This document shows positions 59,703 to 64,000 of a DNA stretch of 64,000 nucleotides, in pieces. The first letter of the stretch is position 1. Each line of letters starts with the position of its first letter. Source of the DNA: Comamonadaceae bacterium OTU4NAUVB1 (GTDB lineage: Bacteria; Pseudomonadota; Gammaproteobacteria; Burkholderiales; Burkholderiaceae_C); the NCBI GenBank assembly GCA_024372625.1, contig CP099605.1, positions 1,426,001-1,490,000 of the forward strand, in the 5' to 3' direction. The notes under the pieces are model-generated. The model searched no databases, was not told where the DNA came from, and saw only the letters and a list, made by a program, of their open reading frames with translations. The translations under genes and the position numbers were made by a program.

Positions 59703-60035
59703 TCAGGCGAGCTGCTGGTCGATGAAGGCGGTGAGCTGAGCCTTGCTCATGGCGCCGACCTTGGTGGCGGCGAGCTGGCCGTCCTTGAAGATCATCAGCG
59801 TGGGGATGCCGCGGATGCCGAACTTGGCCGGGATGTCGCGGTTCTCGTCGACGTTCATCTTGGCGACCTGGAGCTTGCCCTTGTAGGTGTTGGAGACCTC
59901 GTCGAGGATCGGCGCGATCATCTTGCACGGACCGCACCACTCGGCCCAGTAATCCACCAGCACCGGCTGGCCGGACTTGAGCACGTCGGCTTCGAAAGAG
60001 GAATCGGAGATGTGTTTGATGAGTTCGCTGGCCAT
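59703..60035 (-). CDS. trxA: Thioredoxin 1
   Basis: Predicted 110 residues. The active site WCGPCK, the preceding VDYWAEW and the cis-Pro motif [11 protein letters not shown] are intact. It reduces cytoplasmic disulphides, for example in ribonucleotide reductase. The trxA-rho order is conserved in many Proteobacteria. About 295 bases between trxA and the next start hold no other gene; part must be promoter for both divergent units. Confidence 0.97.
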
Positions 60036-60330: not shown

Positions 60331-63300
60331 ATGCCCGCCATGTCCATGAATCCGCCGCCTCCCGCCCATCCCGTGCAGGCGCTCTGGTGCGACCCGGTCG
60401 AGGGTCTGGTGGCGCGCATCGACGGCGTCCTGGCGCGGCGTGGCGTGCGGCCCGCGCGCTGCGTCGTGCTCGTGCCCTATGCCCAGCTCATCGGCGTGGC
60501 CGAGGCGATGTGGGCACGCTGCGCGACGGCCCATGGCGCGCCGCGCTTCGAGACCACGCGCAACTGGGCGCGCGGCATGGGGGATTTCACGTCCGCGCCG
60601 CACGACCTGGTCTTCGACATGGCGCGCGACCTGGTGGCCGCCCAGGCACTGCTCGCGCAGACCAGCTTCGGGGCCGAGAAGCAGGCGCTCGCCGGCGGCC
60701 TGGTCGAGCTGGCCTGCCAGCTCGCGCCGCTGGCCGCCGCGCGCCACCCCGACGACCGCGCCGCCTGGATGCTGGCGCTGCAGTCGGCCCTGCGCATCGA
60801 GGGCGACGCCGAGTGGTTCAAGACCGAGGGCGCGCTCAACGCCATCGCGCTGGCATGGGTCGCCACCACGTCCTACGCCACCGACGTGCTGCTGCGGGGT
60901 CCGGAAGCCACCCACGTGGACCTGCTGATCGTGCTGGAGGGCCTGCAGGCCGATCCGCTGGCGCTCGCCCTGTGCGAGCGCTGGGGCGAGGCCGCCGTGC
61001 GCCTGCCGTTCCCGGCCTGCCCGGCGCCGCCCGGGCCCGCCCGGGTGCATGCCGCGGCCGACCCGCAGGACGAGGCCGAGCGCGCCGCCGCCTGCGTGAT
61101 GGAACGGCTGGCCGAGGGCCACGCCGCGGTCGCGCTGGTCGCCACCGATCGCGTGCTCACGCGCCGCATCGCCGCGCAGCTCCAGTCGCTGGGCGTGCCC
61201 ACGCACGACGAGACCGGCTGGAAGCTCTCCACCACGCGCTCCGCCGCGACCCTCATGGGGGCGCTGCGGGCCTGCGCGCGCGAGGCCACGAGCGACGAGG
61301 TGCTGGACTGGCTCAAGGGCACGGGCGATCTGCCGGCCGGGGAGATCGACGCCCTGGAGACGCGCCTGCGCCGCGAGGGCCTGCGCGAGTGGCGCCGCTG
61401 GTCGCGCGCCATCGCCGCCGGTGCGCGCGAGGAGGACGCCGCGCTGCGGCGCCTGACCGCCCTCGTGGAGGCGCGCCGCGCCGGGCTGTCGAAGGCGCGC
61501 GCGCTCGACGACTGGCTGCGCGACCTGCGCCGCCTGCTGGAGGCCACGCTCGCCTGGGACGCGCTGGCCGCCGATGCGGCGGGCGCCGGCGTCGTGGCGG
61601 CGCTGTGGCTCGATGCCGGCACCGACGCGGCGGAAGGCGGCGACCGGGGCGAGGGCGGCCCGGCGGCCGGCGGCGCCGGCGCCGCCGCGCCCGCGCGCCG
61701 CCTCTCCGGTGGCCGTTTCACGCTCGGCGAATTCACCGGCTGGGTGCGCGACGTGCTCGAGGCCGGCAGCTTCGTGCCGCCGGCCGGCGGCGCCGCCTCG
61801 CACGTCATCGTGCTGCCGATGCAGCAGCTGCTCGGCCGTGCCTTCGACGCGGTGGTGATGCCCGGCTGCGACGAGCGCCGCGTGCCGGCCTCGCCCGAGC
61901 CGCCCGGCGCCTGGACGGCGGCGCAGCGCCTGGCGCTGGGGTTGCCTTCGCGCGAGGCGCTCGAGGCCGCCCAGCGCGCGGCCTGGGCGATGGCCCTGTG
62001 CCAGCCGCGCTGCGACCTGCTCTGGCGGGCGGCCGATTCGACCGGCGAGCCGATGCGGCCGAGCGCGCTGCTGCAGGCGCTGCGCCTGGATGGCGGCGCC
62101 GTCGACGCCGCCGATCCGCGCGTCGCCGATCCGGTCGCGCTGCGTCCCACGGCGCGCCCCGCGCCCCGTGGCGACGAACTGCCGCTGGCCACCGTCTCCA
62201 CCAGCGTCTACGAGGACCTGCGCCGCTGTCCGTACCGCTTCTTCGCGCTGCGCCAGCTCGGCCTGCGCAATGCCGAGGAGATCGACTCGCAGGTCGACAA
62301 GCGCGACTTCGGCAACTGGCTGCACGCCGTGCTCGGGCACTTCCACGAGACGCTGCGCCACGCCGCCGATGCCGACCGGACGGCGCGTCTGGCGCTCATC
62401 GAGCAGGCCGCCGAGCGCGCCACGCGCGAGGCGGCCTTGGGCGCGGCGGAGTTCCTGCCCTTCGCCGCCGCCTGGCCGGCGGTGCGCGACGGCTACCTCG
62501 ACTGGCTGCGCACGCACGAGGCCGGCGGCGCCGTGTTCGTCGAGTCCGAGCCCTGGATGCGCCAGCCCCTGGGCCGGCTGGAACTGGTCGGACGGCTCGA
62601 CCGGATCGATCGCACCGCCGATGGCCGCGCCTTCGTCATCGACTACAAGACCGAGGCCCTCAAGACCACCGAGGACCGCGTCAAGGACCCGGCCGAGGAC
62701 ACCCAGCTGGCGTTCTACGCCGCGCTCATGGCCGACGACACCCTGCGCGCGGCGTATGTCAACGTCGGCGAGCGCGCGCCCGGCACGAAGACGGTGGAGC
62801 AGCCGGACGTCGTCGCGGCGCGCGACGCGCTGGTCGACGGCCTGATGACCGACTTCGCGCGCATCGCCGACGGCGCGCCGCTGCCGCCGCTGGGCGAGGG
62901 CGCGGTCTGCGACCATTGCGACGCGCGCGGCCTGTGCCGCCGCGATTCGTGGAGCGACGACGCCGTCGCGACGGCGCCGCAGGGCGCCGGGGGCCTGGCG
63001 GGCGACGACCGCGTCGGGGCCGCCGACGTGGGGGTCGAGCCGCCACCGCCGGAAGCCGAGGACCTGCCGGTGGCCACCGCGCCCGCGTACGAGCACAACG
63101 GACGGCCGGTCGCGCGCGAAGACTTCTACCGCATCGCCTGCGACCCGCGCCGCAACGTCGCGGTGGAGGCCTGCGCCGGCGCCGGCAAGACCTGGATGCT
63201 CGTCTCGCGCATCGTCCGCGCGCTCCTGGAGGAGGGCGAGGGCGCCTGCGAGCCGCACGAGATCCTGGCGATCACCTTCACCCGCAAGGCCGCCGGCGAG

Positions 63301-64000
63301 ATGGGCGCGCGGCTCGACCAGTGGCTCGCGCAGTTCGCGGGTCAGACGCCCGAGGTCCTCGCGACCGAGCTGGTGCTGCGCGGCATGGCGCCGGGCGCCG
63401 CCGCCGCCGCCGCGCCGCGCCTGAAGGGGCTGTACCGGCGGCTGCTCGACGGCGGCCGGCCGGTGCAGTTCCGCACCTTCCACGCCTGGTTCGCCGGCCT
63501 GGTGCGCAATGCGCCGATGGCCGCGCTGACGGCGCTGGGCCTGCCGGCGCACTACGAGCTGCTGGAGGACGACGCCGAGGCGCGCGGCCAGGCGTGGCGA
63601 CCGTTCTTCGAGGCGGTGGCGGCCGATGCCGACGCGCTCGCCGACTACCGGGCGCTGGTCGCGACGCACGGGCGCTCGCAGATCGCCAAGGCGCTGGGCG
63701 AGGCCCTGACGCGGCGCGTGGAGTTCACGCTGTCGGAGCCGGCCACGGCGGTCCAGCCGTTCGGCGCGCTGCATCCGTCGCTCGACGGCCTGCGCGAGCC
63801 CGCCGACGCGCTGGCCACCGAAGCGGCGCGGCGCGAATGGCTCGCGCGCGCCGCCGCGCTCGGCGGCGAGACCAACAAGACCCCGCAGAAGGCGGCCGAG
63901 GCGATCGTCGAGGTCTTCGGCGGCGGCGTGCCGGCCGTCGAGGACGGCGCCGCGGCGCTGGCGCGGCTGCGCAAGGCCTTCTTCGTCGCCGCCGAGGACC
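60331..64000 (+). CDS. AddB-like Fe-S nuclease fused in frame to AddA-like UvrD helicase, 3' truncated
   Basis: One frame stays open for 1223 codons to the window edge. Residues 1 to about 874 are AddB/PD-(D/E)XK-type: a degenerate helicase region, then nuclease motifs HAVLGHFHE, LVGRLDRID and AFVIDYKT. Four Fe-S cysteines lie at RRCPYRFF and in CDHCDARGLC (C-x2-C-x5-C). A linker of about 45 Ala/Gly/Pro/Glu-rich residues leads to an AddA/UvrD helicase with Walker A ACAGAGKT (947-954) and ITFTRKAAGEM. The known enzyme is a two-subunit helicase-nuclease repairing double-strand breaks. Starts at 60340 and 60346 are also possible; none has a good ribosome site. Confidence 0.82.
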   Translation, partial: MPAMSMNPPPPAHPVQALWCDPVEGLVARIDGVLARRGVRPARCVVLVPYAQLIGVAEAMWARCATAHGAPRFETTRNWARGMGDFTSAPHDLVFDMARDLVAAQALLAQTSFGAEKQALAGGLVELACQLAPLAAARHPDDRAAWMLALQSALRIEGDAEWFKTEGALNAIALAWVATTSYATDVLLRGPEATHVDLLIVLEGLQADPLALALCERWGEAAVRLPFPACPAPPGPARVHAAADPQDEAERAAACVMERLAEGHAAVALVATDRVLTRRIAAQLQSLGVPTHDETGWKLSTTRSAATLMGALRACAREATSDEVLDWLKGTGDLPAGEIDALETRLRREGLREWRRWSRAIAAGAREEDAALRRLTALVEARRAGLSKARALDDWLRDLRRLLEATLAWDALAADAAGAGVVAALWLDAGTDAAEGGDRGEGGPAAGGAGAAAPARRLSGGRFTLGEFTGWVRDVLEAGSFVPPAGGAASHVIVLPMQQLLGRAFDAVVMPGCDERRVPASPEPPGAWTAAQRLALGLPSREALEAAQRAAWAMALCQPRCDLLWRAADSTGEPMRPSALLQALRLDGGAVDAADPRVADPVALRPTARPAPRGDELPLATVSTSVYEDLRRCPYRFFALRQLGLRNAEEIDSQVDKRDFGNWLHAVLGHFHETLRHAADADRTARLALIEQAAERATREAALGAAEFLPFAAAWPAVRDGYLDWLRTHEAGGAVFVESEPWMRQPLGRLELVGRLDRIDRTADGRAFVIDYKTEALKTTEDRVKDPAEDTQLAFYAALMADDTLRAAYVNVGERAPGTKTVEQPDVVAARDALVDGLMTDFARIADGAPLPPLGEGAVCDHCDARGLCRRDSWSDDAVATAPQGAGGLAGDDRVGAADVGVEPPPPEAEDLPVATAPAYEHNGRPVAREDFYRIACDPRRNVAVEACAGAGKTWMLVSRIVRALLEEGEGACEPHEILAITFTRKAAGEMGARLDQWLAQFAGQTPEVLATELVLRGMAPGAAAAAAPRLKGLYRRLLDGGRPVQFRTFHAWFAGLVRNAPMAALTALGLPAHYELLEDDAEARGQAWRPFFEAVAADADALADYRALVATHGRSQIAKALGEALTRRVEFTLSEPATAVQPFGALHPSLDGLREPADALATEAARREWLARAAALGGETNKTPQKAAEAIVEVFGGGVPAVEDGAAALARLRKAFFVAAED

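Follow-up and report, generated by a model that had tools for sequence, protein, structure and literature searches.

Gene layout at the locus

We analyzed a window of 64,000 nucleotides from Comamonadaceae bacterium OTU4NAUVB1 (G000:C3:1426001-1490000 in our survey, contig CP099605.1; the G000 assembly comprises 4.66 Mb in 5 contigs and is 98.78% complete). Its right edge holds a gene, here called addBA, which probably encodes a helicase-nuclease of the AddAB type in a single chain, with an AddB-like nuclease half followed in frame by an AddA-like helicase half. The first 3,670 bases of addBA lie at 60331..64000 on the plus strand, and the rest falls outside the window, ending at G000:C3:1492156 (L003:10157). 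The frame runs from 60331 to 63999 without a stop, up to the window edge, and on rightward extension it closes at L003:10155-10157 (C3:1492154-1492156), 1,941 codons counted from the ATG at 60331. The single frame from AddB to AddA put forward in a first-pass annotation of the window is thus confirmed. The length of more than 2000 residues that it had expected is not reached at 1,941 residues, and the AddA nuclease domain, whose absence it had passed over, is missing. Candidate start codons are the ATGs at 60331, 60340, and 60346. The database copy of the protein (P0001) has 1,938 residues, which fits a start at 60340, whereas the N-termini of two related fused proteins, P0002 and P0004, suggest 60346.

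The AddB-like half (60331..62952, +; residues 1-874) consists of a helicase-like fold without a Walker A motif and a PD-(D/E)XK nuclease domain (62194..62940, +; PF12705), which carries a four-Cys iron-staple pattern and the GRLDRID..VIDYK motifs. It ends in RRDSW, with residue 874, and is followed by an in-frame, stop-free, Ala/Pro-rich linker of 45 residues (62953..63087, +) that reaches to YEHNG. The elements that had been quoted for this junction are all found, namely the AddB end motif CDHCDARGLCRRDSW at 62908-62952, the linker at 62953-63087, and then the AddA start YEHNGRPVAREDFYRIACDPRRNVAVEA. The AddA-like half, a helicase of superfamily 1A (SF1A), begins at 63088..64000 (+; PF00580, PF13361) and runs on outside the window to residue 1941, with the Walker A motif (GAGKT) of its motor at 63178..63192 (+). 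Near the end of the linker, GAGGA (63058-63062) is followed after a gap of 7 bases by GTG (63070-63072), a possible internal start for AddA (63058..63072, +).

Identity of the two halves

Structures were predicted with AlphaFold2 and searched with Foldseek half by half, the joined chain not being modelled as one. The AddB half gives a mean predicted local distance difference test (pLDDT) score of 89.9 (58 sequences aligned), and its best five Foldseek matches are chain B of Bacillus subtilis AddAB (top 4cej_B, E-value 1.2e-19, template modeling (TM) score 0.54); a profile search of PDB sequences returns 3u44_B as best (1.8e-7). For the AddA half, the mean pLDDT is 86.3 (57 sequences aligned), chain A of that complex takes the four best places (top 4cei_A, E-value 3.4e-30, TM-score 0.53), and the best profile match is 3u44_A (3.8e-61). 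Given moderate TM-scores and an identity of 14-18% in the fold alignments, the kinship to B. subtilis AddAB is at the level of the fold and is not close.

Pfam finds a single PD-(D/E)XK nuclease domain in the window protein (PF12705, residues 622-870, 3.8e-37), and after it UvrD helicase domains (PF00580 and PF13361) with best stretches at 937-1373 and 1777-1874. Residues C633, C860, C863, C869, D757, D771, and K773 are invariant in the 58 aligned AddB sequences. The 57 aligned AddA sequences show no variation at the G, G, K, and T of Walker A or in DEFQ of motif II, and the A of Walker A is kept at 90% or more. A pattern search found no Walker A in the AddB half.

The AddB half therefore shows the helicase-like fold and the four-Cys iron-sulfur (Fe-S) PD-(D/E)XK nuclease that define AddB, and the AddA half the UvrD-type SF1A motor that defines AddA. 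Two features of AddAB are absent: at the gene level there is one open frame instead of two separate polypeptides, and there is one nuclease domain, that of AddB, instead of one per subunit. The related families fit less well. A search of G000 for RecC (TIGR01450) gave no match at 1e-20, which does not support a RecBCD enzyme (RecD was not searched for). AdnAB carries a Walker A motor in both subunits, whereas here the AddB half has no Walker A pattern and the UvrD domain is in AddA only. Dna2 and Bad are SF1B enzymes, whereas the motor here best matches AddA, UvrD, and RecB, which are SF1A.

An acidic, disordered insert separates the AddA helicase parts at about residues 670-760 of the L003 AddA half. 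It contains MPDFSDVPDFEEPF, and P0003 has MPDFSDRPDFVEPF in the same region; it may resemble the acidic tip of SSB. The AddA model falls below a pLDDT of 50 at residues 681-755, within this insert, and at 990-994 and 1004-1024.

Fused and split loci within and beyond the genus

We surveyed 101 genomes of the genus, which we infer to be Variovorax, accepting matches with an E-value of 1e-60 or better; 80 genomes have a match and 21 have none. Among the 80 loci with both halves, 11 are a single frame and 69 are two adjacent genes. The one-frame genomes are G000, G096, G074, G064, G067, G139 (in which AddB is truncated by a contig end), G140, G141, G146, G111, and G106. Their linkers, counted from the W in the AddB landmark and ending two residues short of the AddA landmark, span 129, 108, 99, 102, 114, 111, 117, 96, 129, 96, and 150 nucleotides, which amounts to nine different lengths. 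The joined gene is thus recurrent in Variovorax and close relatives and not unique to the window genome, while AddA and AddB are, as had been stated, normally separate: all 69 named loci with a readable junction (records L034-L112) are split as well.

In 67 of the 69 split genus loci, the AddA start and the AddB stop overlap by 4 nucleotides (ATGA); the exceptions are L155, where the AddB frame is shifted, and L199, with a GTG at -14. Absence of this overlap-type start thus marks the genus loci that are joined in frame, barring L155 and L199. An in-frame start at a given distance from AddA occurs in at most two of the 11 fused loci; eight of the 11 have some in-frame ATG, GTG, or TTG inside the linker, and three (L143, L150, and L152) have none between the AddB end and 26 bases into AddA. 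In the named loci the 4-nucleotide overlap occurs in 49 of 69, or in 43 of 63 outside Variovorax, once six Variovorax records are set aside. The remaining junctions show other spacings (19) or a 1-nucleotide overlap (one).

The protein database holds, besides P0001, 12 proteins with the AddB-AddA layout (P0002-P0013; 1,957-2,093 residues; among 86 matches, with 7,972 candidates scored). P0006 is identical to the G074 copy across the tree columns kept. P0002 and P0003, which come from other sources, share 84-85% identity with the window protein and are open across the same linker, so a base-calling error hiding a stop between 62950 and 63090 is unlikely. Some of the fused genes are annotated in the database as 'subunit A' or 'subunit B'. 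A further protein, P0015 (1,477 residues), joins AddB and AddA pieces with the middle (the Fe-S Cys and the AddA N-terminus) missing, and looks like an internal deletion or an artefact.

In this GC-rich DNA, most alternative frames of the fused linkers are likewise stop-free, so openness by itself is weak evidence for addBA, and the codon-position composition of the linkers is too flat to tell coding from noncoding. The case for the fusion rests instead on conservation, with 11 of 80 loci held in frame through nine linker lengths, and by this comparison of genes the addBA fusion is real and recurrent within Variovorax and close relatives. Long shadow frames also lie over the fused gene (L003:4151-11488, +, 2,445 residues; L003:4149-10109, -, 1,986 residues), a caution for reading open frames in GC-rich DNA.

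Fused and split loci share their neighbors, which indicates that the change occurred in place. A thioredoxin-like gene, which diverges from addBA in the window (59703..60035, -), lies upstream in 10 of 11 fused loci and in 69 of 69 split ones, the missing case (L147) stopping at a contig end. On the downstream side, a FAD oxidoreductase gene is found in all 11 fused loci and in 67 of the 69 split ones.

A wider search with a 602-residue piece across the junction covered 399 genomes of the family and 399 of the order, and found matches in 100 of the former (1e-90) and in at least 148 of the latter (1e-25). G000 alone, among the matches listed for family and order, gave a stop-free match over both halves; the best three candidates per genome were scored, and weaker matches fell under the cut-off, so further fusions could be missed. 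Eight family genomes give a single match across both halves, yet with internal stops. Long frames in G251, G246, G479, G289, and G188 had suggested fusions, and their loci proved to be split. No paper on an AddB-AddA fusion was found in the open-access literature, among the matches listed, and fused AddBA is in this sense a variant of AddAB without a paper.

Origin of the fusion

Trees were built on the concatenated halves with FastTree (132 rows) and, for a chosen subset of 55 rows, with IQ-TREE (LG+G4). The larger tree omits loci with AddB shorter than 700 or AddA shorter than 800 residues (among them L147, L183, L204, and L206), six Variovorax records that duplicate genus loci, and L097-L112. 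By our reading of both trees, the fused rows fall into eight groups. The minimum number of state changes is six in both, and in the 55-row tree five of them are required by branches with good support. Constraining the 21 fused rows of that tree to one clade is 971 log-likelihood units worse (approximately unbiased test, p 9.7e-84). Since the fused rows do not form one clade, the state must have changed repeatedly between fused and split. The 4-nucleotide overlap is common both in the genus and outside it, which favors a split ancestor and repeated fusion, a scenario needing eight gains by our reading of the tree; the alternative is an early fusion with repeated splitting.

A GC-rich palindrome recurs in the AddB tails of six split genus loci (L157, L163, L172, L173, L199, and L207), and a similar peptide (like APRLATACASPPPEGE) occurs in the linkers of P0008, P0011, and P0013. 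The distribution of this stretch or peptide is patchy on the tree. A mobile repeat at the junction was suspected, and a search of the window, the genus loci, and those named loci whose junction is readable turned up no further copy.

Loss of the AddA nuclease domain

The AddA half of L003 ends 84 residues past the motif VI landmark (LYVATTRA), whereas this tail measures 229-243 residues in the other unbroken genus loci with the landmark and 154 in a broken one, L183. The nuclease signature WWVLDYKS, or a variant, is found in all 10 other fused genus loci and in 66 of 69 split loci; two of the three without it are cut by contig ends and the third is L183. PF12705 was detected in AddA of all four loci tested (L143, L144, L188, and L044; E-values 1e-6 to 8e-6). 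No second PF12705 is found in the window AddA, P0002, or P0003, where the AddB copy alone is present; P0004-P0013, also fused, keep the signature (as LDCKS in P0011 and VFDYKS in P0008). A 160-residue piece containing the AddA nuclease of the sister lineage had no match in G000, in a search run without a positive control. The gene after addBA overlaps it by 4 nucleotides, so the loss looks clean.

By domain content, then, the window lineage (the window protein, P0002, and P0003) is without the C-terminal nuclease domain of AddA, and the tree suggests that this loss came after the fusion. It is the feature most specific to the window genome, and the double change of fusion and nuclease loss in one lineage is in our view the most interesting point of the locus.

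Constraint on the fused gene

RecC is present in 21 of the 101 genus genomes, 19 of which have no AddAB, while two (G106 and G072) have both. AddAB or RecC is detected in 99 of the 101, the two genomes with neither being G071 and G153, which are 62% and 58% complete. G000 counts among the 99 through addBA, which, given the lack of a RecC match, is probably its sole enzyme of the kind. Across the genus (101 genomes, with RecC as marker), AddAB and RecBCD replace each other.

Identity of the window protein to P0002 and P0003 is 90% and 86% in AddB and 94% and 92% in AddA motor motifs I-IV, compared with 82% and 56% in the linker, 44% and 51% in the acidic insert, and 60% and 54% in the tail. As a share of tree length, the stem of L003, P0002, and P0003 is longer than that of the sister in six of eight regions. 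The largest stem share is in the first part of AddB (3.17% of tree length vs 1.78% in the sister). We looked for relaxation confined to this Chi-scanner part and found other regions raised almost as much. The mean tip distances of the same clade are below those of the sister in five of eight regions and above them in three, clearly in the first part of AddB and slightly in the AddB nuclease and AddA II-IV. The pattern would fit, perhaps, a burst of change at the domain loss followed by constraint in most regions.

Proposed mechanism and alternatives

We propose that addBA encodes a natural single-chain helicase-nuclease of the AddAB type, laid out as AddB-linker-AddA ('AddBA'), a reading to which we assign a probability of roughly 0.7. 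Two-gene relatives carry the usual 4-nucleotide ATGA overlap, which should couple AddA translation to that of AddB, whereas in the window and several Variovorax lineages the frames are joined with no common AddA start. Genes that overlap briefly are translated in a coupled manner, and such overlaps are enriched where the products are subunits of one complex, which the authors link to stoichiometry (PMC10666635). Fusion can be seen as a further step the same way. The product is expected to fold as the usual AddB/AddA pair tethered by a disordered linker, so that each AddB would be born with its AddA and a 1:1 stoichiometry would follow.

The B. subtilis complex runs on a single motor, that of AddA; its AddA nuclease cuts the 3' strand and its AddB nuclease the 5' strand, and the binding of Chi by AddB is thought to withhold the 3' strand from the AddA nuclease (PMC4824097, PMC4027173). 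The window lineage keeps one motor, in AddA, and one Fe-S nuclease, in AddB. By analogy, the AddA motor would unwind a broken end and the AddB nuclease would cut the 5' strand, with nothing in the enzyme to cut the 3' strand; 3' overhangs for RecA would then form starting at the end itself, largely independent of a Chi switch. The window enzyme would thus cut the 5' strand only and be largely free of Chi control; we know of no Chi sequence for this group. In its strictest form, the proposal is a single-chain, single-nuclease resectase locked in the post-Chi state, with 5' cutting alone, a 3' overhang from the first base, and no destructive mode. We put this form forward tentatively, at clearly less than even odds.

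Several points weigh against this picture. The protein misses the NCBIfam cut-offs (309 of 860.75 bits for addA_alphas and 78.4 of 486.5 for addB_alphas, models named for other groups), the strand roles are borrowed from a distant enzyme of 14-18% identity in fold alignments, and the single chain is a prediction from a gene that also has a plausible internal start. The long stem of the window clade could reflect altered or relaxed function. In G094 (locus L183; single contig, 99% complete, and likewise without a RecC match), frame shifts, from pseudogene formation or sequencing errors, break both addB and addA, which suggests that a broken addBA need not be lethal.

The same observations could speak for a gene in decay, its nuclease lost and its frames run together, or for a join that is an assembly error. 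Loss of a catalytic domain, the raised stem, and the broken locus of G094 all point toward decay, and AddA of isopod Wolbachia lost its nuclease through a premature stop in a setting of genome reduction (PMC4224334). We consider both decay and misassembly very improbable, since the same protein was recovered from other sources at 84-85% identity, the four Cys, the AddB catalytic residues, and the invariant helicase residues are all intact, mean tip distances lie below those of the sister in most regions, and no RecC match is present in G000 as a substitute.

A plausible objection concerns the internal GTG at 63070-63072, from which a separate AddA might be made, alone or beside the long chain. 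The Shine-Dalgarno-like GAGGA ahead of it is well spaced, the EDLPV encoded over the GTG is conserved in P0002 and P0003 at the protein level, and eight of 11 fused loci have an in-frame start codon somewhere in the linker. Yet the sister lineage L143 has no start codon at the corresponding place, no position is shared by more than two fused loci, and three loci have none at all as far as 26 bases into AddA. With AddA made on its own, moreover, there would be nothing to keep the frames joined across nine linker lengths. On balance we find a separate AddA quite unlikely. Somewhat less remote, and still rather unlikely in our judgement, is that the chain is fused with one nuclease and that both strands are cut, as by ordinary AddAB or RecBCD, either by the AddB nuclease or with the help of RecJ, ExoI, or other exonucleases. 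RecBCD does operate with one nuclease domain, which acts on both strands. Loss of the AddA nuclease domain lowers the exonuclease activity of AddAB while repair still operates (PMC4224334, citing Amundsen 2009). In the AddAB architecture, however, each nuclease lines the exit channel of its own strand (PMC4027173), which speaks against this reading.

A single-chain AddBA would matter for several reasons. Natural single-chain forms in several lineages, beside two-gene close relatives, make the effect of covalent joining directly comparable. The window lineage offers a natural deletion of the AddA nuclease in a genome without a RecC match, in which a changed enzyme may alter how broken DNA is prepared for repair. 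A standing question, whether a cell can do without the Chi-switched, destructive mode of such an enzyme, thus becomes testable outside laboratory mutants; if it can, the cost may lie in degrading foreign linear DNA. Should the locked form be true, it would be a Chi-independent bacterial resection enzyme, with an effect like that of eukaryotic Dna2-type resection, reached by fusion and then domain loss.

Comparison with known systems

AddAB in beta-proteobacteria has long been known (PMC1193525). The best match for each half is AddAB (RexAB) of B. subtilis (PDB 3u44/4cej), with which the window enzyme shares the SF1A motor of AddA and the helicase-like AddB half with its Fe-S nuclease; the B. 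subtilis enzyme has two chains and two nucleases, whereas the window enzyme has one of each. Closer are the addB-addA pairs of Comamonadaceae, with the same order and, in the genus, the same neighbors, and with aligned sequences 37-74% identical to the window halves (lower for distant outgroups). They differ in being separate genes, often with a 4-nucleotide overlap, and in keeping the AddA nuclease where checked.

RecBCD shows fold kinship in both halves by Foldseek (AddA with RecB, AddB with RecC). It has one nuclease domain in the enzyme, on RecB, together with two motors and the partners RecC and RecD, whereas in the window enzyme the nuclease is on the AddB half and there is one motor. 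The addA of isopod Wolbachia is likewise without its nuclease, and by the authors' Ka/Ks (ratio of nonsynonymous to synonymous substitution) the rest of the gene is under purifying selection (PMC4224334). That case involves a premature stop in an endosymbiont gene, and addA and addB have separate locus tags in Table 1 of the source (PMC4224334), whereas here no remnant of the nuclease could be found, and addA is joined to addB. Dna2, Bad, and the UvrD-Cas4 fusions resemble the window enzyme in that a single chain holds an SF1 helicase together with a nuclease of the RecB family, and in Dna2 and Bad the Fe-S nuclease precedes the motor, as it does here (PMC7430649, PMC5704561). Dna2 and Bad differ in their SF1B motor, and none of these proteins is known to have the helicase-like half that AddB contributes to the window enzyme (PMC7430649, PMC5704561).

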